64,000 nt of DNA from Isoetes taiwanensis (Eukaryota; Streptophyta; Lycopodiopsida; Isoetales; Isoetaceae). The translations under genes and the position numbers were made by a program. Location of the stretch: the NCBI GenBank assembly GCA_021234155.1, contig JAJEKV010000129.1, positions 1,095,963-1,159,962 on the forward strand, in the 5' to 3' direction. Shown here one piece after another: positions 3,505 to 47,036 of this stretch. The stretch's first letter is position 1; each line of letters starts with the position of its first letter. The notes under the pieces are model-generated. The model was not told where the DNA came from, made no database searches, and worked only from the letters and a program-made list of their open reading frames with translations.

Positions 3505-5240
3505 GTAATTCACAGGAGCCTCTTCCTTTTCTGATAGATACCTACAATAATGTGTATTGAACATGTTGATGTAATGGAGATTTGTTTGAGAATAGAATGA
3601 TGGTGCAAGACGGTAATAGGAATTACAACCTTAGGTGAGTTTATCCGTTGTTTCTCTTGCTTGATTCCTTTCACAAATCTACAAAATCTTGAAGTCGGAT
3701 AAATTACCATATTTGAGCAGAGAGACTGCTTCTGCCAGGTGGAGTCTCTTGTATCTTTTGGTCATTTCAGTATTGTTTACAAATGTTTTTCACAACTGTA
3801 CTTCTATATTGATACCCTTTTGGATACCCTTGCTTTGTTTCGACGAGATTACTCTTGCCCGTGATTTATATACCCATACATTTACCATCTTGCTGTATGT
3901 ACAGGACCTGGGCATTTTGTGGATGTAATAAGCATTCTAGTTATGCTTTCATATAGTCGATAAATAATTTTTGTCCCCAAGTTGCTCCTTCTCAGTATTT
4001 ACTAAATAAGTTCCACATTACCCCTTCCTCGCATTTGCCTTGGAATTTGTGATGTTGAATGGATGAACTTCTCTTGCTATTTGTAGGCGTTTTCTGTTCA
4101 GTTATTTTGGGATGCATTTGGAATGTCGTGGATGGTGACGATGAGTTATTTGAGTTGGAAGAGATTTTGTACCTATGATGCCATTGGGCTTGATGAGATG
4201 TTGAGGTGTTATTGCTTGTTTGGTCTTTGCTGCTTAAAAGCCTAATCAATATTGTGTTGTTGTGTTACCGAGTATAGTGGCTATTGTAGATGTTTTGATA
4301 GAATTTCTCATGTTAAATTCCCAAGGCAGATGGTCATGGGCATTCTAATTAGCCAGAAATGATGCATTTTCTTTTCCAAACAATAGTTTCTTCCTATGAA
4401 CAGTTATTCTTGCTCCTTGGGTCTGGGGCTTTTTACCTTGTTTCACAGGAGTCTCTTCCTCCTCTAATAGATACCTACAATACTGTGTATTGAACATGTT
4501 GATGTAATGGGGTTTTGTTTGAGAATAGAATGATGGTGCAAGATGGTCCTAGAAATTACAACCTTAGGTGTTTATCCTTTATTTCCCTTGCTTGATTCTT
4601 TTCACAAATCTAGAAAATCTTGAAGTCGGACAAATTTACCATGTTTGAGCACAGATTGCTTCTGCCAGGTGGAGTCTCTTGTATCCTTTGGTCATTTCAG
4701 TATTGTTTACTAGTGTTTTTCACAACTGTAGTTCTATATTGATCCCCGTTTGGATACCCTTGCTTTCTTTTGACGAGATTGCTTTTGCCCGTGATTTATA
4801 CCTATACATTTACTATCTTGTTGTATGCATAGGGATCCACATCACCCCTTCCTCGCCTTTGCCTTGCAATTTGTGATGTTGAATGGATGAACTTCTCTTG
4901 CTATTTGTAGGCATTTTTTTGTTCAGATATTTGGGAATGCTTTTGGAATGTCGTGGATGATGATGATGAGTTATTTGAGTTGAGGAGATTTTTGTACCTA
5001 TGATACCATTGGGCTTGATGAGATGTTGAGGTGTTATTGCTTGTTTGGTTTTTGCTACAAAAAAAGCCTAACCGATATTGTGTTGATGTGTTACCAAGTA
5101 TAGTGGCTATTGTAGATGTTTTGATAGAATTTCTCATGTTGAGTTTCCCAAAGCAAATGGTCATGGGCATTCTAAGTAGCCAGAAATGATGCACTTTCTT
5201 TTCCAAACAATAGTTTCTTCCTATGAACATTTGTTCTTGC
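3505..5240. repeat. Tandem duplication of a ~0.9-kb segment
   Basis: Two direct copies lie side by side: about 3505-4437 and 4438-5240. Matching landmarks include the phrase around TAGATACCTACAATA (3535 and 4467), ATGTTGATGTAATGG (3562 and 4496), GAATAGAATGATGGTGCAAG (3590 and 4523), GGTGGAGTCTCTTGTATC (3738 and 4670) and TTGATGAGATGTTGAGG (4190 and 5015). The second copy has a deletion around 3900-4010 of the first. No known protein is legible in either copy. Confidence 0.8.
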
Positions 5241-6281: not shown

Positions 6282-6990
6282 ACTATATCATATGCCCAAT
6301 AGATTCTCTCATACAATAGCTAGATTATTGAAAATGCATGTTCAAAGAAATCTTGAATGAGTTGTAGAAATAGAATTATCAAAAATGTTCTTTACTCGCT
6401 TCAAAGAAGCCTTGGCAAAGATCTTATACACTGAGGATAACAAAGTGGTTGGTCGCCAATTTGAAACAACCTGGGGATCTTTACCCTTGGGAATAAGTGA
6501 GATGACACATGTATTCAGAATTTTATTCAAGTGGTATGACGGAAGTCATAACAAGCATTAAACACATCTAGCTTCAACCATTCCCAATATTCCCAAAAGA
6601 ACTCAATTGATATAGCATCCAACACCATTTTTAGTGCAAAAACTGTCGAACATAGATCAATAGTAATTATAACATCCTTTATTGATAGGCGTTGCTCCTC
6701 AAAAACGATGGAAAAATCCTAGACAACACAGCGTCTCACATTTCCACATGAAAGGGCAAATGTCTCTCAATAAAAAGTGTTTGAAAGTGATTTGTAGATG
6801 TTGCTTGATTTCTGCTGACTCCAGAAGCACTGAACCATCATCCAGGTGCAATAAAGACATGGCTGACATCTTGCAACACCACTTAGCTAGATGAAAGAAT
6901 AAGTCTGTACAATGGTCTCCATCACGAGATCACTACAGACCTGCTTTAAGCTTTGCCTACTAGTCTTCCAAAGCTTGAATCTATATCAGA
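6282..6990 (-). mobile_element. LINE fragment: region upstream of RT plus RT fingers
   Basis: Minus-strand text in several frames runs: DGDHCTDLFFHLAKW (the GDxNTxFFH block), LHLDDGSVLLESAEIKQHL (the LxDGSxxxxxxEIxxHF block), VLDAISIEFFWEYW (the PDGLPIEFFKxFW block), INTCVISLIPKG-like text, SNWRPTTLLSSVYKIFAKA (the NWRPITLLNxxYKIxAKAL block) and CIFNNLAIV (the GRxIxDNxxxV block). This order is that of plant L1 LINE ORF2. Multiple stops show decay. It ends where the TRIM chain begins and its continuation is the fragment at 435-870. Confidence 0.8.
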
Positions 6991-7953
6991 ATATGCCGAT
7001 TATGAACCCCTATAAGGATTCCTTGTTGGCAAAGAAAGAAGATCCTGATACAGAGTTTCCAATAAAGCACAATTTGCTGCAGATTCTTGGTCCCACTATT
7101 TGGCAAAACTTTTTGCTGCTGCAAGTGCATCCACTATGTCCCATTCCTCGATGTCGACAATTCTACAAAACCAATACGTGCTTGGAGGTTAATTTCATTA
7201 AAAACCATATGTGGCTAATCCAATTGGTTCTTTTGTAAGGTTTGTTAGAGTGGTATTTTGACATGGTAAATGAATAAAGTGGTATTACATGTTGCTAAAT
7301 AGATGTGGTATATTACAGTGCTTTAAGGGTATGGTTTGTCCATCTGGTAATATTGTTCAATGTGGTGGTAAACTAGCATGGATTAATGTCATGGTAAAAG
7401 CACATGGTTCGCAATACGTTACATGCAAATTACTATTAGTGTTATCAATTTTAGATGTATTATTAATGTAAATCAATAATGATAACCAGTAACTATTTTT
7501 CATTTGAAGCATTCCAAGTTTAGTACAAAAACTATTGGCTGTGGACACTGGTTGTGCCACTGTGCATTATTCAATAACAACAAAAGTATGGAGCAAGGGG
7601 ATTTGAACCCAGACATTTCCAAAACTCATATAGACATTTCCAAAACTCATATATTCAACAACGTACAAGACAAATTTAGATCAAATGGCAAACATGTAGC
7701 TCAGAAAGAAAGATTGGCCTTGCCTTTTTATTTATATACATATCAGTCACATTAATACACCTTAAACTGAAAGTAATCACCTTGTATTACATCAGACACA
7801 TTAATACAGCTTAAACTGAAGACCTCTAGATGCATCTCGTGATGCAACAAAGCCCAGAAATAATATCTACCTTCTAAATCCTGATATGCATGTCCAGCAA
7901 TAGGAGCCATCTAAAAATATCAAGACAGATAGCTTGGTTTACCAGATCAATTG
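6991..7953. other. No clear gene; short repeat and possible SINE trace
   Basis: At 7600-7620 a GGGGATTTGAACCC phrase (complement GGGTTCAAATCCCC) resembles a pol III B box. The neighbourhood 7567-7625 is similar to 18405-18455, suggesting a small dispersed repeat. At 7616-7655 an 18-bp phrase (CATTTCCAAAACTCATAT) is duplicated. I see no coding region. Confidence 0.3.
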
Positions 7954-32884: not shown

Positions 32885-34050
32885 CAGACCCTCAGGTCCA
32901 TAGGCGGCTTTTACAAAAATGTGCATTTATATTAGGCCATTTGCCTCAAGTTCATCAGGTAAATCATTTAATTCTAATATCTCTTTATAGAGATTCCACC
33001 AACCATATAAATAATTCCCAAGAACCGTAGTATCTAGTGTCTGCTCATGCAAAGAGGAGAACATCATGCACTCCAATAGCACGTGTTGCTCATCTTCCAC
33101 ACTAGCTCGTCTACAACAGGAGCAGAAGGGAAGTTCTCGGGGAACCCCATGAAAGCGACGGACCTCGCTTTCAAGTTTATGACTGCTTAACCTTATAATT
33201 GAGATATCATGTTTCTTCTTTTGCCCTGCAGGCTAGTATTCAAGTATTCTTGCTCCACATAGATCAGCATGGAATAATGCACTTCTATAGAATTCCATGG
33301 TGTTCCCCATGTCTTTTGAGTGACGCTATCAGTTACTAAGCATCTGATCCCTGCATTTGTTTCAGGTAGGTCATGCAGGCTAATTCCCCAACGCTCTGCT
33401 CACTCATGTAACTATTGGAGCCATCCTATGTATCTTGTTGCATTGATTCTCTTAGTGCCTGGTGTGGAATTCTTCCCTCTAGGTTCTGGATTCTGACCAA
33501 GTATGAGAGGGCTTGATAGAGGGCTTCAGCTTCAAGTGGGAGAAAACCTACTTCTGCCATAAGCATTGGATATGGAGTTTGGGCTTTTACTCCTAACTCA
33601 TTTAAAAGGAAGCGCTTTTGAACATTTTCAACCTTTGTCCACATCTTCTTAGAGAGTCCAGGTCCCCAAACTTGACATCCATATATTGTGATAGGCTGCA
33701 CTAGTGTTCTATACATAAGTTTCCTCAAATTCCATTTACAGACATGATTATTCTTCCATAGGCTCAGCACACTGTATAGAGCCCACATGCCTCCACAATT
33801 CTCTGCTCCACTCTTGCATTCCATTTGTAGCCATCTGTTACTTCAATTCCCAGATATTTATATGCATGTGTTCGTTCTAGTACTTCCCCGGCATATATCA
33901 GGTCTACTTTTTCCCTTCTTCCAATAATCATCACTTTGGTTTTCCGTCTATTCAACCGCATCCCTGTTGCTTCGCAAAATGACTCAAGAACATTCAATTG
34001 TTGTTGCAATCCTAGTGATATTCTAGATAGGAGAACAACATTGTCAGCAT
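32885..34050 (-). mobile_element. LINE ORF2 remnant: RT palm to C-terminal knuckle
   Basis: Minus-strand frames read KYADNVVLLSRISLGLQQQL, CEATGMRLNRRKTKVMIIG, YKYLGIEV (33764-34050), then YGCQVWGPGL, VENVQKRFLLNELGVKAQTP (33426-33740), then SVEDEQHVLLECMMFSSL near 33065-33120. This is the order RT palm, thumb, zinc-knuckle of a LINE of the kind seen at 27009 (VEDExHxLLEC). The catalytic FADD block reads YADN, so the second Asp is lost. It is cut upstream by the next LINE at 34051. Confidence 0.8.
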
Positions 34051-35450
34051 ATTTATTTTTTTGAGGGTAAGATATATGTGTATTAATATTAAAATTAGAA
34101 AATATGTACAATAGAACCCCTCTATAAGGGAGATACAGATGATGTGGGAGTCCAAGTACAGGTACTACAGAGGGCATCTACTCGTCTTCCCCACTAAGAG
34201 GGTACTATAAGGAAGATCTTCTTTCTTCACCAAAGAGTGGGTACTATAGAGAGAGCCAGCTCCATTCCAGTACAAGATCCACCAATTAACTTAAATACTA
34301 TCTGTTACTCATTATCAACCCAATGGCACCTGAAGTATGAATAGAACCCCATCAAGGTCCCTATTTTATCAAGTCCTTTGTTGTATTTCGTGCCTTTCTT
34401 CTTATGGTGAGATAGAGCCATCAAAGCGACCTCCATATTAAACGAGTTTTTTAGCTTTTCTATAGAGATCCCCTGACCACCTAAAGCCACATCACAATGA
34501 TGCTTCCAGATAACCCAAAGTGTCAGGTTCACCAGAGAGGCATCAATGCAGCAACGATCCGTATTGATGAGCAGCTCTGGCCAGACCAATTGGCTTAACA
34601 TGATACCAATAATAGGGCAGACCCACTGCCAGAATTCAACAATCCGGGGACAGAAAAAGAGGTGAGATATGGATTCAGTTACCTGACAGCCCAATGGACA
34701 TCTGTCGTCAACTGTAATGCCCTTAATAATTAACCGTTCCATAGTACTTAATCCCCCTTGAAGAGCTAACCATCTGAAGAACTGAATCTTCCTAGAGCAG
34801 ATAGATTTTCAGGAGTTAGACAGTAAGGTTTTGGTGTCTGCCATACTAACCCCAAGCCTCACCTCAGCTAACAGGGGGGTATCCTGGCACAGATCCCTAT
34901 ATATCCTCTTCACACTATACTGATTTTGCCCATCATATCCCCTGACCCCACAACACCCGTCAGATTAATGGTATTCCATAGGATTTCCTTTAAGACTTTA
35001 CGGTCACCTTCCCTTGAGTTCGGGATTACCCTCTTGAATGCAGTCCAATTAACCCATCTGCCATTTGACGAAGATACGAGGGTGTGAGAGTGCCAAGGAA
35101 AGCCCGTCTCTCTCCCAGATCCCAGTGTTCCAAAATAGACTAAATCCACCCGCATCCCTGGGGGGATCTATTGGAGAGAAGAGATGCTGCACTTTTAACC
35201 ATGCATGAAGAATTTTACGCATAACAGAAGATGTTCCAGGGGCCACCTTGAAGTTGTAGAATAGAGCACCCAGCTCATCCCTAGGGAGAGATGGCTTACC
35301 AAGGAGCTTGCCTTGCTTCAACCAATAAGAAACAAATCTCAAGGCGGGGGATGACTCACCTTGTAGTGCACGCCAGACAAATTTGGCTGCCAGAGCCTGA
35401 GCTTGTAAGAAGGGATCCTTACAGCCCAAACCACCATCTTTTACCCATCT
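34051..35450 (-). mobile_element. LINE 3' part inserted into the neighbouring LINE
   Basis: Minus-strand frames: DGGLGCKDPFLQAQALAAKFVWRALQ (35350-35440), then GGFSLFWNTG, WERDGLSLALSHP (35060-35160), then RLIIKGITVDDRCPLGCQVTESISHLFFCPRIVEFW (34620-34740), the CPxCxxxxESxxHLFFxC knuckle, and LTLWVIWKHH near 34490. It ends in a short A-rich tail (T-run at 34051-34058) exactly at the cut edge of the preceding LINE, so it inserted into it. Several stops are present. Confidence 0.78.
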
Positions 35451-35679: not shown

Positions 35680-35730
35680 ACCGTGAAGCACAGTTTCATT
35701 ATTTATGGACTTTCCACAAGTCCATAAATA
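35680..35730 (+). repeat. Left terminal inverted repeat of element 1 with hairpin
   Basis: The terminal segment is followed at once by an ATTTATGGACTT..AAGTCCATAAAT palindrome (35701-35729), an arrangement that could be a transposase-binding hairpin. The right end has the same TGTGGAC phrase twice (near 46985-47012) but not the same palindrome. Confidence 0.55.
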
Positions 35731-36033
35731 TCTCAAATTATCGCCAGTGGTAAGAATATAGGGTTCTTTCTTCAAAATAGTGACATGATTTTGTGCTCGG
35801 CTTAAAAAAGAACTCGGTTTCCGTGCGGGTAGTTGACATGGCAGGCCGTGGAATCCAATGCGAATTTTTAGATTTCGTCATTTCTTGTTATTAAAATGAG
35901 CCACAATTTCGGGAATCGTGCAAGTAGGTGAGATAGGAGGTCCCTTCATCCAGTCTCTTCATTGTCTCTTCATTCTATCTCTTCGTGCAAGCACCTTCAT
36001 TCGCTCTCTTAGATTCATTTCAGGTCACTCAGA

Positions 36034-36318
36034 ATGGTCGACACAAGGCGCAGACAGGGACACACCATCGCCGAAATGCAGTCTCATATTAGTGAGGCAA
36101 TCTTAGCCCATGCGAATCAGTTGCAGCTGGAGGTACAAAACGAGATGAGCCAGATCCGAACGAGAGAAGTTAGCGCCCAACTCACGAAGCTCCTCAAAGG
36201 GGATGGGTTGATAAAGGATGGCGACGAGGAAGAACTCAGTAGGGTGGAGCTGGAGGACTGCCTCATATCTTTGAAAAGCATTTGTATTCTGAGGCAAAGG
36301 CACCGAAAAGGCTGCTGA
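36034..36318 (+). CDS. Short unidentified ORF near the left end of element 1
   Basis: An open frame of 94 codons begins MVDTRRRQGHTIAEMQSHIS and is predicted helical (QLQLEVQNEMSQIRTREVSAQ). N-termini of some Ty3-type Gag proteins look similar (short basic start and a coiled coil), but no further gag blocks follow. Helical text continues out of frame to about 36400. It may be the start of a small element-encoded protein or a gag scrap. I do not assign a function. Confidence 0.3.
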   Translation: MVDTRRRQGHTIAEMQSHISEAILAHANQLQLEVQNEMSQIRTREVSAQLTKLLKGDGLIKDGDEEELSRVELEDCLISLKSICILRQRHRKGC

Positions 36319-36776
36319 AAATGGAGGACGTTTGGATTCACAACACGTTCGACCTGTTTAAAAGCTTTACAAGAAGCAAAGAAGACAATGCGAAGGTTTG
36401 GTAACCAAGCTCATCGTCGTCGGCGATGGTCACACTCTCAAAGACTTGGATGATCATTTGGATCTGTCAGTGAAGTCATATTGATGAGTTCGATCCGGGG
36501 ATCTTATTGAGGTTGAACCCGGGCATTATTTGAAGCTTTTGTCTTTTATATTATATGTTGTCTATTATCTAGTATGTTTGTGTTGAATTAGCCATACTGT
36601 AAGACCTATGTATTTTCTTTATCTAAAAGAATACCAAACTGTTGGTTAATCAATATTGGAAACACTGGAAAGTAATACCAAAAATATTACACATGTCTTT
36701 ATATTCTTGGATCATGTACATAAGTTATTTCACTTTTTGATTCTAAAAACATATACATTGAGTTACAGAGGGTGCG

Positions 36777-36798
36777 AAATTGGGCGCCCGCCCAATTT
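36777..36798. promoter_or_regulatory. Isolated 22-bp near-palindrome, element 1
   Basis: Arms AAATTGGGC and GCCCAATTT flank a GCCC spacer. The match extends outward as GGTGC / GCACC. It lies just beyond the 3' end of the minus-strand gene and is the leftmost member of the family found in the intron and intergenic arrays. Confidence 0.75.
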
Positions 36799-37710
36799 GC
36801 ACCTCGCTAACTTGCAAAACAGATCGTATGACAACATGAAATGCTTAAGGGTCCACCCTTGGTGACATATCGGTGTGACCAACTTCACTTTGTTCTCCCC
36901 CCCCCGTGCCGCTTGCTTGGGGAGCTCCATCCGGGCCAGGAATTCTTGAGGAGGTTAGTGTAAGCGTCAACACCCTCATTCTCAACCTCATCGTCCATTT
37001 GAACCTCATCCCCTTCTCAACTTCCTCGTCCTCAACGTTAGCCTCTTTCATAACCTGAGGCTCCTTTTCAACGTCAACCCCAACCTCCATTGCTTGCTCT
37101 GATGGTAGTGGGTCCACAGGTTGAGCATCTTGTGTCTCCAATACAACAGAAGGTTCTTGGTCCTTCAGGAGCAGCTCCGTAAACTTCGAGCTACCCTCGA
37201 CCAGATCTTGGGTGCACACTCTTTGCTGGCAGCCTGCCAAAGCATTAATGTTGTCCTTCTTCTTTCTAAAGAAAGACATGTCCTTTGCTCCAAAAACGCA
37301 ACCTTTCTCAAATGGTCTGTGAGAGAACCCTTAGACATCCGAAGAGTGGATTGCAACTCTTGCACCGTTTGTGCAGGGAATGGACAAGGAGGTGGAGGAG
37401 GGGTCGCCACTGTACTTGCCTTGGAGCCGCTTGCTTTCTTTTTTCCCTCTGCTATCTTTTGCAATGCACGGGCTCTCGATTTCTTCTCGTCCAGCATAAC
37501 TTCAAGTTGATCAAATATCTGAACAAGTTTAAGCTGTATATTCTCATCAATCTCAAATGCAGCGGATTTATATCCTTCGCACATGGCTGCACGGCTAAAG
37601 GATCCTCCGGAGAAGAAGTCAAGGACACTGCAACCCTCAAGCATAAATTTCCGCACTAGGTATGTGCATGTCCTGGAATCTAATTGATGTGGCAAAAGAG
37701 CACCCCCGCC

Positions 37711-37957
37711 TCCTGGGTAAAAGAATGCTAGGGTGTCCTACATTTGGCCAAATGTAGAGTAAGAGATGTATCACATTTCAAATACATAACCACCGCCTCC
37801 CATAATTTCGAATGGGTGACGTGGCTAATCCCAATAATTCCATATCCCAACCAACTTTAATTAAAAAAGAAAACAATAATAGGTGCCTACATTATCCTAC
37901 ATTATACGTAATGTAAGGGCATTTTTTTTAGACACCCTAGCATTCTTTTACCCTCCT
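37711..37957. mobile_element. MITE (239 bp) in the last intron, duplicating the splice acceptor
   Basis: The ends 37715-37737 and 37931-37953 are perfect 23-bp inverted repeats beginning GGGTAAAAGAATGCTAGGGT. TCCT flanks both sides (37711-37714 and 37954-37957), a short target duplication. On the gene's strand TCCT is AGGA, which spans the 3' splice site AG|GA, so the insertion recreated an acceptor next to exon 3. There is no coding sequence inside. Confidence 0.88.
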
Positions 37958-39263
37958 GCCACACTCTTGTCACCCAAGGCCGATACAACCAGTATGCTGA
38001 ATGATAGTAGACAACCGTTATAAGTGATATTGAAAAGAAATGGACAGAGACACAAGTTTAAATCCTGTTACCTGCTGCGCACTCATGATCGGGGAGGTTC
38101 TTCTCTATGTCCTCCGCTTCTTTCAAGTGCTGCGGAAACTTCGAATACTCTTGAGGATGGTCCGCGTCGTTGAAGCATATATTCAGGTCATTCATAGCAG
38201 GGGCAGCTGCTTGGTCTCTGGCCACATACATTACCAGAACAAGGGTCTACAGCTCGCGAACACGAGAGGAAGGGTTTCTCTTTTTAGGATCCTGGTACAC
38301 TCCCACCCATACACGACTACCTCCGTCTATAGTTTTCATGGCAGACAAGCATTCACTCAAACGATCTGGACTGATAAAGATCGTGATCCAATATAGTTGC
38401 TGATCCGTTAGCACACTGATCTGGTCCAAGAACTTCTGGTAATCCTCCATGCTCCATTTCTTGATATTTCTGAAATCACATCCGATAAACCGAGCAGAGG
38501 TATTGACCACATCAACTGACATCCCCAGAGGACTGACACGGTAGCATTTGAATGATTTAGATCCATCTTCCACCGGTCCGCGCAGATACTCATCAACCTT
38601 CAGGATAAGAGCCTTTGGAAGGTTGAGCTTTTCTGCCTCCTTGCGGCTATCAACCCAATCACCTACACTGTTAGCGAACATTAACATCAAATTTTCCGTG
38701 AATATGGGATGAATTTTCCTCAAATCTGCCATGTTGTCAACTTTGAGCTTCTTTACATCTTTCAGATATTTAAGGAGTGCACGCTCGACAGTGCCAATCT
38801 TCTTCAGTTCTCCCGCACGGATTTTCATGACACGCCTACCTGTGTAATTTTTAGTGGTCTTGATGTACGTGGTGCCTGTCATGATCTCCGTCAACAGTCT
38901 TTGCAAATCCATTGGATGCATGGACTTTAAAGATCGGCACTTGTTATTCGTGAACATTCTCAGCCGGTCCTTAACCACTATCGTCTCACCCAATTCATCT
39001 TTTAGTTGGTCTTCATAGAACAACTGAGCCACTTGTAGGCACATATTCCAAGTTTGGTCATCCAAGTACACGAAGAAATCGTAATCTCGCATGCTAAGTT
39101 TCTTCAATGTACGCAAATCGGCTATAGCGAGCCAATCCCAATTTAATGGCCAAGGAGATGACATAGTAAACTTAGCATATTTGAAATATATGATCTCAAA
39201 ATCGAGAAATGCACAAGCTACCATGCAATGCACATGGGGGCCAATGCACATGGGAGGGCTACC

Positions 39264-39938
39264 AAATTGGGCGCCCGCCCAATTTGATGGCCAAGGAGAT
39301 GCGATTTTACATGCTTAATGCACATGGAGGTAACCCAAATTGGGCGCCCGCCCAATTTGATGGCCAAGGGGGTGCAATTTAACATGCATAATACACATGG
39401 GGACATCCAAAATTGGCGCCGCCCAATTTCATAGCGTGAGGCTACATGAAACATGTGTGATAAAGACATGGGAGGGCTCCCAAATTGGGCGCCCGCCCAA
39501 TTTGATGGCCAAGGGGGTGCAATTCAACATGCATAATACACATGGGGGACATCCGAAATTGGGCGCCCGCCCAATTTCATAGCCAGGAGGCTACATGAAA
39601 CACAGTGACAGCACATGGGAGGGCTCCCAAATTGGGCGCCCGCCCAATTTGATGGCCAGGGTGGTACAATTTAACATGCATAATACACATGGAGGCATCC
39701 GAAATTGGGCGCCCGCCCAATTTCATAACCAGGAGGCTACATGAAACATGGTGACTGCACATGGGAGGGGTCCCAAATTGGGCGCCCGCCCAATTTGATG
39801 GCCAAGGGGATGCGATTTAACATGCTTAATGCACATGGAGGCCTCCCAAATTGGGCGCCCGCCCAATTTGATGGCCAAGGGGGTGCAATTTAACATAATA
39901 CACATGAGGGCGTCCCAAATTGGGCGCCCACCGAATTT
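39264..39938. repeat. Tandem array of the near-palindrome in the intron of element 1
   Basis: Ten copies lie about every 60-75 bp (starts 39264, 39337, 39409, 39482, 39556, 39629, 39702, 39775, 39848, 39917), set in ~145-bp double units that alternate ...TTTGATGGCCAAGG... and ...TTTCATAGCCAGG... contexts. Arms AAATTGGGC / GCCCAATTT are strictly kept while flanks vary. Copies three and ten are damaged. The array sits between the GTAAGT donor (39979) and the next exon of the H3-mimic gene. Confidence 0.92.
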
Positions 39939-41581
39939 GATGAGAAAAAAATACTACATGACAATTAGAATTGACTTACTGAATATGCGCTATCTTGGGA
40001 TAGTCCACGCTTTCCCTTCTTCGGCTTTCCATAGATTGCCCATTGATTCCTTAGCTGCTGTATTTGCTCGAAGTAAACATCCTGATGGATGGTATTCTTG
40101 GTGATATCGTTGCTTTCCTGGCTAACCTTCACATATTCAGTAGGAGTGAGGTTCCCGGCCAGCACGCGACATTTTCTTTTAGCGTAGAAGAAAAAAATAA
40201 GATCTTTCGGATGAGCCCTTTCTCACGGCCATTCCAAGGCCGATTAACAAGAATTTGGGCAAGCTGCAGGTGGTGTGATTGCCATTTACAATCCGACCTC
40301 GCATTGTCCAAATCGCCGGCCTTCTTCCACGATTGCACGCCGAAGGTGCGGATCAAAGGGTACAACATCCGCACAAGGTGGATGCATCTGGACATTAATA
40401 AAGGATTCATAGAGTGTATCTACATGTTCAGGACTGATGACCCTGCAGGTCATATTTGCAGGTGCTTGATGCATTTTAAATATATCCACCTCTATTTCGA
40501 ATTCAATTCCAAGAGGATAGATCCTTTCCCTGTGCCTAATGTTGATCAATGCACTTTGTGACAGCGAACGTCTGCTTTCCTGGGTCCCAGCCCCGCCAGA
40601 TGTCGAGCACTTAACAATTTGCCTGTCATCTTCCTCTGAGCCTGTCCCAGTCGAACTCCCCCCATCGGATCCACCTGATGTGGATGGAGGAGTCGAGTCT
40701 CTTCTTTTCTTCGACGAGGAAGCTATTGCCTCATGCCGACTTCGTTTTCTTACTTGCGTTTCTGGTGGGGACTGCTCAGATACCTCCTGCGAACGAATGC
40801 TTAGGTCCGGGCTACGTGATGTAGTTCGCATACCACCAAGAATCATTTTTGGCGTTTGTGTTTCTGATCTTTTCTTTTTTGGAACATTTAATTTTTCTGA
40901 CGAGACGGCTGTTGGCTTTTCTGTGCCCTTAGGTCCTTCATTCTTCCTAGAAACTCCATAACGTGACCTCAACCACGGCGTGTCATAGACCTTAGGTTGG
41001 TTCTTCCCATGATATTCTGTGTAAAGGGCCTTTGATCGATTTTGTTTATGATCGAGTATGTACTGTCTAACTGTGTTAAATCCATCTATAATATCTCCCC
41101 GTTTGGTGAGTCCAGATCTATCAAGGCTTTCGTAAGAAGCAAGGACCCAGCCCTTGGCCTGACACGAATGTGGAGCCTCAGTGATGCTTGCATGCATTAA
41201 CTGAGGATTGTAAGTCTCAAAGGGTAACCTGTATCCTTGAAATGACTTATCAAGCACGTCTTCCACGACAACATCTAGCTCGTTGTCAACCTCAGTGCTC
41301 ACAGTCATGTCAATTGCGATACCAGCATTCTGTATCCTCCGAGTCCCGGGCTCAGCAAAGTACAAGCACAGATCCTTGAGATGATTTGTGCTTGAGCCAG
41401 GGTGGATTGTGCCTACCTCTATGCACCATGAAAACTTGTCCGCTACAGCTGTCATTAGCTCTGGGACGACTTCAATACCATTGAACTGAATGCTCGACTC
41501 TGTTTCCTTTGCTGCAGCAAATGCCTGTGCCAACGGAGGGCCAGCTCCAGGTACACGTGCAGTTTGTTTAGTTCTGGCCAT

Positions 41582-41690
41582 GGGTGCTGCATAACATCAT
41601 TCATTAAACCCATTAGTAGTGTATTCAAGCATTAAAACAAGATAGGGGAGAACAGAGGAGTTTTAAAAGCAAGAACATCGGCAAGAGGGT
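41582..41690 (-). promoter_or_regulatory. Leader of the H3-mimic gene
   Basis: On the minus strand TTATGCAG|CACCCATGGCC immediately precedes the start, so the ATG probably sits five bases into an exon behind a 5'-UTR intron. CACCCATGGCC is a favourable translation-start context. This supports choosing this ATG and therefore an H3-like N-terminus. Confidence 0.5.
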
Positions 41691-41945
41691 GCCAAATTGG
41701 GCGTCCGCCCGATTTGGCACCCCAGAGGAGGTTTGGATGGAGAAACCGAGGCAAGAGGAGACACCCCAGGAACAGATGCAAGAGGGTGCGAAATTGGGCG
41801 CCCGCCCGATTTGCGACCCCAGAGGAAGTTTGGATGCAGGACCAGATGCAAGGAGAGGCAAGGTGGGCGCCCCCCCAATTTGCCACCACAGATGCTTGGA
41901 GACAAGGAGAGGCAAGAGGATCACAAATTGGGCGCCTAGAGTCGG
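41691..41945. repeat. ~75-105-bp repeats carrying near-palindromes
   Basis: Four copies of the palindrome family (41694, 41791, and damaged ones near 41860 and 41924) sit in a repeat that also contains CCAGAGGARGTTTGGATG and GATGCAAGRAG. Inverted GGTGCCAAATTGGGCG / CGCCCGATTTGGCACC extends the arms in the first copy. It lies upstream of the H3-mimic start. Confidence 0.85.
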
Positions 41946-42239
41946 TTTAGAAGCATGGAAGCAGAGGGTGTGTGGATGCAGAGGGTTATTTGGTGCAGAG
42001 GACACAGCTTCTGAGGTACTAAGTCACAACCAAAATTAGAAGCATAGAATCCAAAATTGATGGATGTAGGATAGCTGAGAATTTCATTTAGGGTGGACTG
42101 CTTATGGCCAGTGGCTTATCGCCTGCAGTAATATAATAAACTAAACTTAAACATAAAAGCGTTACCTTTTCCTTCCTTCAAGGGTCATTTTTCCATGAAA
42201 CCAGTGGCGCCTGGAAGCTCAGGGACAGCGCTTACAAGA

Positions 42240-42370
42240 AACAGAACCTGGCGGAATCACTTAGAAGACGATAGGCGCAGCGTGAACCTGGCGAAATCAC
42301 TATCAAGACGAGAGCAGCTGCCTGATCCTGGCGCAATCACTTTCAAGACGATAGGCGCAGCAAGAACCTC
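42240..42370. repeat. 40-bp tandem repeat (three copies)
   Basis: Units starting near 42246, 42286 and 42326 share CCTGGCGNAATCACTNTCAAGACGA followed by TAGGCGCAGC or a variant. Confidence 0.8.
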
Positions 42371-42554
42371 AAATGAATGAGCAAGCGGTTAGGAATCGGT
42401 GGCGAGATTGAACATGTGAATGACAAGTGGCATCCATGCAAATGAAGAGTCTTAAAAATAGACCGTTTTAACTAAATATAGACCAAAAGAAATAACAATA
42501 AAAATAGACTTATGCAATAAATGTGCCCGAAACATTAAATGCCGATTTTTAAAT

Positions 42555-42735
42555 TAATATAGACGTCCGCCCGCCCGCCCCAATTTGAATTGCCCGCCCC
42601 AATTTGAATTTAAAATCACAGGCCCGCCCGCCCCAAATTGAATTTAAAACTACGGGCCCGCCCGAATTTGAATTACGTCCCGCCCGAATTTGAATTTGAA
42701 TATATATTACGGGCCCACCCGCCCAATCAAACTCT
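42555..42735. repeat. CCCGCCC / AATTTGAATT repeats
   Basis: Irregular alternation of CCCGCCCGCCCC with AATTTGAATTTAAA phrases, apparently built from half-sites of the palindrome family. It lies between the two divergent genes of element 1, just before a possible first exon of the transposase at 42829-42849 (ATG GCG TGC ... AAG|GTAAAT). Confidence 0.7.
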
Positions 42736-43180
42736 AGTGGGAGAATTGAATTTTGAATTACTCTCACGGAAGCGGAGCGGATAAGTATTTCGTTCTCCCA
42801 CATTCTTGGGCGGCTACTTGTTCAGCGGATGGCGTGCGATTCACCAAAGGTAAATTTCTTCCGGTTTATACGTTTATTATTTGCCACATTGGTATAGATG
42901 CGGATTTTAAGATGCCTGGATTGGTATAGAACATTATTGATGAGAAGATTTGAGAAATAAATAGAAGTTTGAGAGATGTATGCCCGGTCCCCCCAACATA
43001 ACTGATGTAGCCTACATTCTATTTGGGGTAGCATGGAAGCTGTCCTGGTTACAACCCAATTACACACCCGTGTAGATCACGAATGGCCAAATTTTATTCC
43101 AAATTGGGTTAGCAAATCGATTTCATACCCGTGTAGATGTGCAGGGCCAAGTAGGGTGGGTGCCTAGTTTGATTCCTGAG

Positions 43181-43920
43181 CAACTATGTATGGGCAGATA
43201 GACCCTTACATAGAAAGAGTAACTATGTATCATTATGTGGGCGGGTGCACAATTACAACTGCTAAGGACCACTAGAAGGAGCAAATTGGGCGCCCGCCCA
43301 ATTTCATCTGCTAAGAAAAGGCGCAGCGAGGCGACAAATTGGTAGTGCCCAATTTCAACTCCCGAAGTTTACTACAGCGAGGGGCAAATTGGGCACCGCC
43401 CAATTTCTACTAAAAGCAGCTTGCGCCGCAAAATTGGGCGGGTGTTCGAATTTCAACTCACTCAAGTTACTACAAATGTAAGCAAATTGGGCTGTTGTAG
43501 TGGTCTCGTGGAGTTGAATTGGGCAACTGCCCAATTTGTATCCACCGCTTGGTGAATTAGCGGCTTCAATTTGCCCCCGCTGCTATGGGATCTTCAGGAG
43601 TTGAAATTGGGCACCCAAACAATTTGCTACCTGTTGTAGTCTTTCTTAGCAGATGAAATTGGGCGGGCGCCCAATTTGCTCCTTGTAGTGGTCCTTAGCA
43701 GTTGTAATTGTGCACCCGCCCAATTTGCCATCACAGGGTGCTATACAATAATGATACATAGTTACTCTTTCTATGTAAGGGTCTATCTGCCCATACATAG
43801 TTAATCTTTCTATGGAAGGGTCTATCTGATTACAGCATGGAGGAAATTGGGCGGGTGCCCAATTTCACCTGCCAAGAACCATTACAAAGGGAGCAAATTT
43901 GGCGCCCGCCCAATTTCATC
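43181..43920. repeat. Inverted-repeat block with ~11 near-palindromes upstream of the transposase
   Basis: The left arm 43181-43315 and the right arm 43643-43802 are reverse complements; both contain TGGGCAGATAGACCCTTACA, ATAGTTACT-type text, GTGCACAATTACAACTGCTA and a full palindrome. Between and beyond them are palindrome copies near 43336, 43386, 43428, 43482, 43525, 43598, 43850 and 43894, most with altered centres but paired arms (for example TTGGGCAACTGCCCAA). It lies in the intergenic or 5'-intron space between the divergent genes. Confidence 0.88.
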
Positions 43921-43983
43921 TGCTAAGGACCATCTGCTACAAATTTGCTCTTGAACTGATTCATGTTTTCTTTGTGCGTGAGG

Positions 43984-46960
43984 TGTACCTATTCAAAAGG
44001 CTGGCCGGGCAGTTGCCAAAGGAGCCATAGGAGCCAGGGAGAGATGCCACTTTAAAGACATCCCAGATGGACTTGTGAGTGTTGGTGTTCTAGCTGTGTT
44101 TGAGGGGCATCATGTTCTCTGTTGGCCTACTCCAGATGCAAGAACCTTAGGTGAGGGGCTGGGTTCCTTCATTCTCTGGAGGGAAAGTGATGTTCACGAC
44201 TCCAATGTCGTGGACGTGCCATCGATCCAAAAAAAAGGAAAGTGGGAAGCAAACAGAGACACTATGTCACTAACTAGGTACACACTCACCGGGAGACCGA
44301 CCGCGAAATTTATCACTCTTGTCTGCTGCCATCCCCGCAGCGGAAGGATTTATATCCTTCACCGGGTCCGCGATGCAGTATGTGACCAGTTCTTGGGTAT
44401 GAAGACCGTAGGGAGGTTTATTGATGAAGGCTTTCCCCCTCCGACAGAGGTGAACTTCCGGTGTCAGGCATGTTTGACAATACCTAAAGCGGGCATGCTT
44501 TTAAGGTGGAATAATGATCTAGTTAGGGTTTGTGGGGTGAAGGTGTCGGAAATTTTAAGTGCAGCACCAGTGGAACAGCATGATACGACGTCGAGCCAGG
44601 GCAGCTCGGAGCTTGAGAAGCATCCGCAGTACGAGAAGCGTAAATACACCTTCCATTCTCGTCAGCCAAAGAGAGCATCAAAGCCTCCAAAGATAGATCG
44701 ACTAACAACCAATGAAGCCATCTTGAGGTATAGGAAGACCATGTGTTGCAAACAGAGATGTTGTGAGAAATTCAGTAGGGATCAAGCTATAAACATGCGA
44801 AAGGATTTCTTCGCCATGAAATCGAGTGACAGGACCACTTTTGTGTATGATATGTTAGGCAACAATATGAAGGGTAGAAGGGTCCATCGGCTAGTCTTGC
44901 AAGGCGTCAGTGTCTGTGAGAGAGCTTGGTACCTTGGTCTTGGGATTTCAAAGTCGGGGTATCTCAAGTGGAAGGCAGAATTCCGCTCCGGTGCTCGAAA
45001 GGCTGAGCATGGCAATTCAGGCACGATGAAAGCACTCGAGAAAACGTGAGGAAGTTGCCTGCTATGTTTACGAAGACATGCATTCTCGAAGAGGTCAACG
45101 CTGAAGTCATGACACCGATTGGGCAAGAAGGTATCTCCGGCTGGGATTTCATAGGACGTGGAGACGAGCTTCAAGGACGCCGGATATTGCTAAGAAGATT
45201 GCATTCTCCAAGTGTGACACTTGCGAGGTTATCCGCACGAAGCTGTTGAAGACCAAGGATGAGGCTGAAAGGAGAATATTGCATGATCAGAGAAGGGCAC
45301 ATAGACTAGAGCAGCAATCATGTCGCACCGATCGGGTCATGGAGATCGTTATCCCAATGTGCATCCTCGAGACTATGTATGTATCATTCATGACAAAATG
45401 GATCGAGCAAAGACTATGATTCCAAAGTTGCTATAATCCGTGAAGTCCCTTTGGAGACTAGATAAGTTAAAGACTTCATTGACAGTGCACTTACCCACCC
45501 GGCCATGGGAGAGGGTCCTATGGTAATTTTGCTTTGGATCCGTGGGGACGACTCCAACTTCCACGTAGGTTCCTTTGAATAGCATTTTGAAAAGGTTGGA
45601 GCTGCCTAATGAGTTTGCAGGAGGCCATCTATCGTTATTCGATCCATCAGTCCCAGATTGGGCAAGGGCCTTACGTGACACCACCGCGCTTAGCGCCAAG
45701 TTGTCGCTATATCCGGCAAGAGCATCCCCGTTGCCCCCCTCAACCGGAGGGACCCTCATTGAAGCGCCTCCCTCATTGATTGATGTTGCAACTAGACAAT
45801 GCATCCGGACAAAACAAAAATAGGTATGTATTCTCATATCTTTCATACCTTGTATATCTCGATGTTTCGATGAGATTGAGTTAGGTTTTATGATGCCCGC
45901 CATACACATGATGATATAGATGCTATGTTTGGTAATTTTTCATCTACCTTGAAGAAAGCCGGTGCTAACCATGCCCGAAGTTGTTGTATGAATTTCATAC
46001 GTGCAATCTCAACACGCCGATGCCATATCTTGTTGATAAGGTTCCAGATTGGAAAGGTTTCATAGAAGGGTATATCCCCGATGGGGAAGATAGATTGATT
46101 TGGTCACACCGAGCCCTCGACCTTTAGATTTGCTATGAATGGTGGCCGGGCCCGTCATGTACCATAAGGCTCGCCCCACGTTCGTGGATTGGTTACCTCC
46201 TCTTTGGAATAAGAATGTGGAAAGAAGGAGAGGATGGAAAACCCCTAATGCCATCCGAAATCCAAAGATGTTAGCACCTAAGACCTCGGTGAAAGACATT
46301 GGTCAGCTCAAACAAGATCCATAAGCATATCCTCCATTGGGTCGCATGCTCGGCGAACAAGAAGGGCACACCGAGAGGCGGCCAAATATACAAAGACAAT
46401 TTACGGCGACAATTGAATATTGGATGGGACTCTTGCAGCATTCGGGTAACATCACCCACGTGGTAGGTCCTTACGAGGACTTTTGTACAAGACTAGGCAA
46501 GATAGACTTGACATACCCTCGATGTGGTGGGCGTGGTGGAGCCAATTGCAACCATCACTCCCGCTTATGTTGGTCCATTGAAGGATAAGCCCGTGCGAAT
46601 TCAATCCATTCAAGGATTTGAAGAAGGGCATGTTTGTATTGGCGCCGGAGGATGATGTCTTGTGCCCAACATGGCTAGGGTATGCTACTGAGAGGAACCT
46701 CAAATGGATGATAAGAAAGAGAACTTCGAGACTATCGGTCACTTGGTGGGAGCTGTCCTGTTAGGGAACCGGTGTTCCCACCAACTATGTCAATTGTTGG
46801 AAGAAGAGATGGAGGCCGACAACGCTAGTGACCGCATTGAGATAGAGAGTATCGACTACGCTTGAAGTCCTTCGAATAAGAAGAAGCTACCAAACACTGT
46901 CAAGATTCCTACGCTTGTTGCAGAAGCATATGCGGCACTTGCCGGGGATGTATGTTAGTG
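43984..46960 (+). pseudogene. DDE-type transposase of element 1
   Basis: Open text runs from about 43984 (PIQKAGRAVAKGAIGARERC, HFKDIPDG) through a 324-codon frame to 45049 with MCCKQRCCEKFSRDQAINM and VCERAWYLGLGISKSGYLKW then HGNSGT. Further frames give KCDTCEVIRTKLLKTKDEAE and RRAHRLEQQSC (from 45210), HDKMDRAKTM (45393), LQLDNASGQNKNR (45786-45824), HTHDDIDAMFGNFSSTLKKAG (45901-45963) and VMYHKARPTFVDWLPPLW (46150). This order (Cys-rich N-part, CxxC with helical H...R, D-x-N-x-x-x-x-N-K core, GHTHxDIDAxF) is that of a widespread plant and animal transposase family I recall as DUF7869-like. At least five frame changes or stops make it inactive. GT donors after NKNR and elsewhere suggest introns too. 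Confidence 0.72.
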
Positions 46961-47036
46961 TTATCGAAGCGTCTGTTTTATAAAAAGTCCACAATTCAAG
47001 GTATTGTCCACATTTAATGAAACTGTGCTTCGTGGT

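Follow-up and report, generated by a model that had tools for sequence, protein, structure and literature searches.

A histone H3-identical N-terminus encoded by a DNA transposon of Isoetes taiwanensis

Results

Organization of the transposon

The window, that is, the whole stretch of 64,000 nucleotides of the Isoetes taiwanensis genome analysed here, contains a DNA transposon carrying the genes ORF1, ORF2 and ORF3, the features of which are located as follows.

35686..47030: whole DNA transposon, 11,345 bp, with terminal inverted repeats beginning AAGCACAGTTTCATTA, delimited by copy comparison
35682..35685: target-site duplication CGTG on the low-coordinate side
47031..47034: target-site duplication CGTG on the high-coordinate side
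43982..46990, plus strand: ORF1, transposase with DUF7869, divergent from ORF2 and broken here; end approximate
39980..41581, minus strand: start-codon exon of ORF2, with the tail, a conserved N-terminal part, an NLS-like low-complexity part and a conserved C-terminal part
38072..39137, minus strand: ORF2 coding exon 2, which spans about 350 aa in relatives and is decayed in the window; limits set by eye
36845..37996, minus strand: ORF2 coding exon 3, containing VLDFFSGGSFSRAAMCEGY, which weakly resembles methyltransferase motif I; limits set by eye
37715-37951: MITE-like 237-bp insertion within exon 3 of ORF2, with inverted ends (GTAAAAGAATGCTAGGGTGTC...); ends by eye, extent from the alignment gap to copy L098
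36013..36401, plus strand: ORF3, small conserved gene convergent with ORF2; limits approximate

The inverted-repeat ends start at 35686 and 47030 with CGTG on either side, and the alignments to copies on other contigs stop at identical points on both sides. Both element ends were compared in four copies only; the target-site duplications elsewhere are TGCT and TTAA (two copies) and the 5-bp AATGG (fourth copy). The DUF7869 domain (PF25273) of ORF1 was detected at E=4.1e-39 in copy L106, where the frame is open for 1074 aa. A search for ORF2 gave 105 matches, taken from the best 97 of 3,022 first-look candidates and all from one genome, which represent 97 copies after subtraction of 8 secondary pieces. 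At least 44 of these 97 copies have an ORF1 match (among the best 123 of 5,027 candidates) within 15 kb, and in 42 of the 44 this match is upstream and divergent, about 0.2 such neighbours being expected by chance. The terminal inverted repeats, the 4-bp target duplication and the divergent DUF7869 transposase bear out the initial annotation, in which the ORF2 product had been called a DNA-transposon protein.

The copy of the element in the window is broken, which the initial annotation had overlooked, as it had the motif arrays and the wide occurrence of the tail coding described below. The transposase frame is interrupted, and ORF2 leaves the paralog frame after codon ~417; many paralog matches end at query residue 417. 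Just outside one of the other transposon copies, we observed an RT ORF of 669 aa (L101:23-2029, minus strand; RVT_1 E=1.4e-27), which is non-LTR-like by eye, and similar broken frames are located at about 33000-34200 of the window.

In relatives, ORF2 is composed of three coding exons of 534-542 aa, about 350 aa and up to 295 aa, the donor-like site of the first exon being read by eye. Two features besides the N-terminus had been proposed for this protein. The nuclear-localisation-like motifs are visible in the window ORF as the basic stretches PKKKRSE and SSKKRRD. The methyltransferase-like C-terminus, on the other hand, is absent from the 431-aa ORF of the window, and what stands of this claim is a set of weak matches in a later exon (37713 and below). 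There, the motif-I-like VLDFFSGGSFS of exon 3 weakly matches M.RsrI (E=0.086) and RsmD (E=0.026-0.036), and one copy gives a weak Pfam N6_N4_Mtase match (E=0.2); beside these, no DPPY-type motif, the catalytic motif of DNA N6/N4 methyltransferases, is visible by eye in exon 3. Neither a convincing match nor a recognisable DNA-binding domain emerged when the first two coding exons were compared with Pfam, NCBIfam, PHROGs and PDB, and the structure models were of insufficient quality (pLDDT 31.9 for exon 1 and 47.2 for exon 2, from alignments of 7 and 3 sequences, respectively). A ParB/sulfiredoxin-like reading of the C-terminal part of exon 1 (VISPEHVDTLYESF...NGNHTT, by eye) was rejected, Pfam, NCBIfam and phage tblastn giving it no support.

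Identity of the ORF2 N-terminus with histone H3

Direct reading of the window showed that the minus-strand ORF (41581-40286, 431 aa) begins MARTKQTARVPGAGPP. Its first nine codons, ATG GCC AGA ACT AAA CAA ACT GCA CGT, encode MARTKQTAR and are followed by VPGAGPP, in agreement with the initial annotation of an exact H3 N-terminus through Arg8.

41555..41581, minus strand: MARTKQTAR, the N-terminus identical to H3 (start codon and residues 1-8 of H3), from the sequence and paralog conservation

Since the canonical H3 genes of the same genome (L122 and L123) encode MARTKQTARKSTGG, residues 1-8 of the mature protein are exact and the likeness ends before Lys9. The N-terminal tail residues 1-8 of the host H3 genes are thus present in ORF2.

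At the base composition of the window, 1.66 Gb should contain the degenerate 27-nt pattern coding for this tail about 0.005 times. A search of the genome (1,658,258,908 bases, 1,110 contigs) gave 1,888 occurrences, while the reversed pattern gave 0 and an H4-tail pattern of the same length, used as a control, gave 16. Given the H4 count, the excess is not a common property of histone tails. A chance match is ruled out by these counts, as had been supposed from the nine-residue identity itself. We also rejected a classification of the window ORF as a histone: no PF00125 histone fold was found in the scanned ORF2 exons of the window and of copies L098-L101, and tblastn with a histone-fold segment gave, in the window, only matches of E 4.8 and 8.3.

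The N-terminus might instead serve nuclear import, N-terminal acetylation or protein stability, with a coincidental likeness to H3. It is indeed basic (R2, K4 and R8), but the non-basic residues T3, Q5, T6 and A7 are identical as well, the coding pattern is expected only about 0.005 times per genome, and separate NLS-like stretches are present further along the ORF. We consider this alternative improbable.

Start codon of ORF2

The ATG at 41581 is likely to be the start codon of ORF2, judging from the surrounding sequence. An in-frame TGA starts 18 nt upstream of it in the window, and the initial Met is retained in 57 of the 70 copies with an N-terminus available, decayed ones among them. An acceptor-like AG precedes the ATG by 5 nt in 40 of the 70 copies and by 8 nt in 5, including subfamilies whose sequence differs further upstream. 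Comparison by tblastx of the region upstream of the ATG between the window and three divergent copies, covering 1.2-1.5 kb in the latter, gave only short pieces, none longer than 44 codons (25% identity), and many of them sit in repeat-rich DNA. Because these pieces are short and weak, a long conserved coding exon upstream is unlikely; the upstream exon is probably a non-coding leader, while a short coding exon may be present.

If an upstream exon were spliced in frame, the ATG would be internal and the motif would lack a free N-terminus. The position of the acceptor-like AG, 5 or 8 nt upstream and thus in the same reading phase in 45 of the 70 copies, and the short upstream matches are in line with this arrangement. 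Against it are the retention of Met even in decayed copies and the lack of long conserved coding sequence upstream in the window and the three divergent copies, and the acceptor would be accounted for by a non-coding leader exon. An internal ATG is, in our estimate, highly improbable.

Conservation of the tail among ORF2 paralogs

The set of 70 N-termini consists of the window copy and 69 of the 105 matches, those in which the match began no later than residue 15. The tail is retained by many paralogs, some with an identity as low as about 55%. MARTKQTAR is exact in 33 of the 70 copies and not in the other 37, many copies being decayed; the 33 exact tails are written in 12 different codings. 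Among the 32 copies with at least 150 open codons, 21 have exact tails and 11 differ at one or more tail residues, the departures including MARTKSTAR (2 copies), MARIKKTAR (1 copy) and the K4R form MARTRQTAR (1 copy). Identity with H3 in the 32 open copies is 32 for A1, 30 for R2, 30 for T3, 31 for K4, 28 for Q5, 29 for T6, 28 for A7 and 26 for R8. In the 33 exact-tail copies, the position of Lys9 (residue 10 counting Met) is never lysine but V, M, A or L, indicating that the mimicry covers residues 1-8 and Lys4 and not Lys9. For this reason, the emphasis that the initial annotation had placed on Lys4 fits the data.

For nine subfamily representatives, picked by eye (L022 was dropped, its frame not being open for 150 codons), the tail shows a pN/pS of 0.089 (pS 0.79, pN 0.071), the lowest among 141 overlapping eight-codon blocks within the first 150 codons, with synonymous sites near saturation. 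When all 32 open copies are taken, the tail ratio is 0.160, the sixth lowest of the 141 blocks, five being lower. The pooled ratios are 0.48 for codons 10-40 and 0.36 for codons 41-140. By these sequence ratios, the tail looks preserved by selection. The expectation that paralogs keep ARTKQTAR while the flanks drift was thus mostly borne out, by the 21 exact open copies and by the ratio in the nine representatives, and not by the 11 open copies that differ.

Near-palindromic motif arrays

The 24-bp near-palindrome CAAATTGGGCGGGCGCCCAATTTG occurs at 18 sites in the window (up to 4 mismatches), all 18 within the element and none in the other 52.7 kb, and dinucleotide shuffles gave no site at up to 3 mismatches. 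The sites are distributed as follows.

39263..39939: array of nine CAAATTGGGCGGGCGCCCAATTTG sites in intron 1 of ORF2, mostly with a 73-bp period
41693..41882: three motif sites upstream of the ORF2 ATG
43282..43917: five motif sites, one with 4 mismatches, in the region separating the divergent ORF1 and ORF2
36776..36799: one motif site 3' of ORF2

Copies L098-L101 likewise carry the motif before the ATG, within intron 1 and 3' of the gene, and the non-coding DNA around it in L099-L101 is hardly alignable to the window. In five copies taken together, 79 of 79 sites (up to 4 mismatches included) are non-coding, though 45% of the compared length is coding by intervals set by hand. Genome-wide, the 22-mer core of the motif has 2,019 exact occurrences against 0 for the reversed control; among 100 listed places, 49 are within 12 kb of an ORF1 or ORF2 copy or of a tail match with ORF2-family coding. 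The location of the arrays in the element's own non-coding DNA suggests that ORF2 may act on its own element.

Other H3-tailed and H3-like sequences in the genome

Twenty further matches to the tail pattern, all MARTKQTAR by construction, were picked for different codings; the listing of the pattern covered 100 of the 1,888 occurrences, from low-numbered contigs and not at random. Fifteen of the 20 are other mobile-type sequences with a histone-H3-like fold. Part of the H3 fold was detected downstream of the tail at E<0.01 in 14 of the 20 short pieces, and for the fifteenth (L097) in a longer stretch, the PF00125 matches reaching E=1.6e-28 in L096 and 1.1e-11 in L089. Lys follows MARTKQTAR in 17 of the 20 matches. 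When four long stretches were analysed, gag (L095), RT (L097) and protease with integrase-SH3/chromodomain (L094) were located downstream on the same strand; gag, protease, RT and chromodomain were not found in the frames scanned in L096. At least part of the sampled tailed sequences are thus Ty3/gypsy elements with an H3-like ORF (family A1). A total of 17 A1 copies were found by the whole protein instead of the tail and chosen among the matches starting at query residue 1; seven of these have exact tails.

MARTKQTAR followed by a long charged linker and, at the C-terminus, a histone-H3-like fold was observed, intact or broken, at L094:5326-6489 and L096:5015-6317 (both minus strand), and the same layout of tail, linker and fold, again intact or broken, at about 2697-4010 of L097 and 2802-3907 of L095 (both plus strand). 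In L094, L096 and L097, palindromes are present on both sides of the H3-like ORF, each locus having its own.

L094:4900-5193 and 6705-7198: palindromic repeats flanking the H3-like ORF
L096:4621-4918 and 6527-6807: palindromic repeats flanking the H3-like ORF
L097:2224-2486 and 4155-4429: palindromic repeats flanking the H3-like ORF

These flanking palindromes recall the motif arrays of the window transposon.

Another group, A2 (L107-L117 and L119-L121), combines a near-canonical H3 core of at most 86% identity with an unknown domain, and 14 of the 15 sequences fetched start, as judged by eye, with the MAITKSA, MANTKST or MATTKST type. An ORF with an H3 core in L118 apparently starts MEEVKQVYKRKPRYSK, and therefore not all of these H3-like proteins seem to have an H3-like start. 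At least 15 canonical H3 genes of full length, at 96-98% identity, are among the best 150 of 9,022 candidates. Elsewhere in the genome, one gene matches chlorophyll a-b binding proteins, the nearest of them from land plants. The difference between 1,888 codings of the H3 tail and 16 of the H4 tail suggests that the host has coexisted with many histone-like element proteins.

Comparison of ORF2 with the retroelement N-termini beyond the tail gave p<=0.05 in 3 of 35 cases, two of them at p<=0.01. All three involve the related loci L079 and L080, and the other 32 show no similarity past the tail. The ORF2 N-terminus may share its origin with the N-termini of the retroelement H3-like proteins, going by these comparisons. 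The view that the whole ORF2 N-terminus was taken from such proteins was not adopted, 3 of 35 being too little to accept it, although it may hold.

These results also bear on a passenger origin of the tail, in which a single copying event from host H3, or from a retroelement carrying H3, would have been followed by inheritance of a functionless sequence. A donor was available in the H3-tailed retroelement proteins of the same genome, the exact tail is gone from more than half of the copies (37 of 70), and the three significant comparisons with L079/L080 point the same way. In opposition, the tail combines nearly saturated synonymous sites with the lowest protein change among the nine representatives, and 32 of the 35 comparisons lack similarity past the tail. 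Descent without function is very improbable on this balance.

Discussion

A proposed role in anti-silencing

ORF2 is the accessory protein of a DNA transposon family. From the sequence comparisons, we propose, with a probability of about 0.8, that its mimicry of the H3 tail is maintained by selection. After removal of Met, the free N-terminus would present ARTKQTAR, imitating the first eight residues of H3. In the manner of VANC, ORF2 would act on the motif arrays of its own element and display the H3 tail there. Host modules that recognise residues 1-8 of H3, such as the pocket of LSD1/LDL-type demethylases, PHD-type readers and H3K4 writers, would then be occupied or recruited, and the outcome would be that an H3K4-methylated, unsilenced state is favoured and the transposase is expressed. 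Taken together with the motif arrays, the SNAG precedent (see below) makes self-directed anti-silencing the simplest model. For this full model, in which display of the H3 tail is combined with H3K4 anti-silencing through the motif arrays, we would give even odds at best.

The mimicry could also be real and recruit host chromatin factors to another end, either the choice of integration sites or the damping of the element's own expression. The data on tail conservation apply equally to such uses, and chromatin targeting is plausible in that the same tail is present on the histone-like proteins of other elements, one of them with an integrase-type chromodomain (L094). The tail is, however, located on ORF2 and not on the transposase, and the motif arrays inside the element's own non-coding DNA point to self-action. 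Use of the tail for these other ends is therefore regarded as unlikely, in favour of self-directed anti-silencing.

In a wider and doubtful extension, display of the H3 tail would be a recurrent strategy of mobile elements in I. taiwanensis, shared by the DNA transposon and the retroelement H3-like proteins, the tailed proteins binding their own repeats to form, on the DNA of the element, a counterfeit nucleosome tail that diverts the H3K4 machinery of the host from silencing. Palindromic repeats specific to each element lie on either side of the tailed gene both in the DNA transposon and at the three retroelement loci analysed. If true, such a strategy would represent a transposon-made chromatin mark independent of nucleosomes.

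An exact H3 N-terminus under selection on a transposon accessory protein would join histone mimicry and transposon anti-silencing. It provides a hypothesis, directly testable at the peptide level, for the way in which a lycophyte transposon evades or exploits H3K4-based control, and a natural reagent for finding proteins that bind the H3 tail.

Comparison with known systems

The arrangement of the element is similar to that of the VANDAL transposons of Arabidopsis, DNA transposons encoding a transposase and accessory proteins, in which short motifs are repeated in introns, intergenic regions and other non-coding parts (PMC5735166, PMC10398659). According to the available text, VANC proteins bind motifs tandemly repeated in the non-coding parts of their own VANDAL transposons, causing loss of DNA methylation (PMC5735166). 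These accounts, in their available parts, mention no H3-like N-terminus (PMC5735166, PMC10398659). VANC is described there with DUF1985 and DUF287, whereas no Pfam match to either was found in the ORF2 exons scanned, and the transposase here is of the DUF7869 type. As no VANC domain was found in ORF2, the two systems are alike in layout and possibly in function, but not by homology.

The SNAG peptide is the nearest biochemical precedent for the ORF2 tail. SNAG domains are host-encoded and only loosely H3-like, while the match of ORF2 is exact over eight residues and encoded by a transposon. In the SNAG-domain repressors GFI1 and SNAI1, as in ORF2, an N-terminal peptide imitates the H3 tail, and SNAG peptides are described in the accessible text as occupying the substrate pocket of LSD1 and blocking the enzyme (PMC5896174).

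Among viral mimics, the ARSK motif of influenza NS1 is likewise an H3-tail motif on a parasite protein engaging host chromatin factors, but it is short and C-terminal, unlike the N-terminal tail of ORF2 (PMC10208167, available text). The word stem 'transpos' has 0 occurrences in the available text of this review of histone mimicry, which holds no transposon case there. In the open-licence literature searched, at the level of listings and abstract openings, we found no DNA transposon reported to mimic the H3 tail, and a word search gave 0 occurrences of 'histone' in the main texts of the genome papers of I. taiwanensis (PMC8566536) and I. sinensis.

Histone-carrying mobile elements are not new as such, since fungal hAT transposons with histone H3-like genes have been published, as the accessible parts of these papers show; these are, as here, mobile elements that amplify H3-related coding sequence (PMC6710886, PMC3538342). 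For the Pyrenophora H3-like gene, ESTs exist and the tail is discussed in the same sources. In the fungal elements, as far as these sources go, the histone genes were captured as cargo, whereas the window protein has the tail and no histone fold by Pfam. Within the same genome, the A1 retroelement ORFs resemble the window element in their MARTKQTAR start and, in the three examined, in their flanking palindromes. In contrast to ORF2, however, these ORFs possess a histone fold, in most cases retain Lys9 (17 of the 20 sampled) and are followed by gag, protease, RT or chromodomain in three of the four long stretches.
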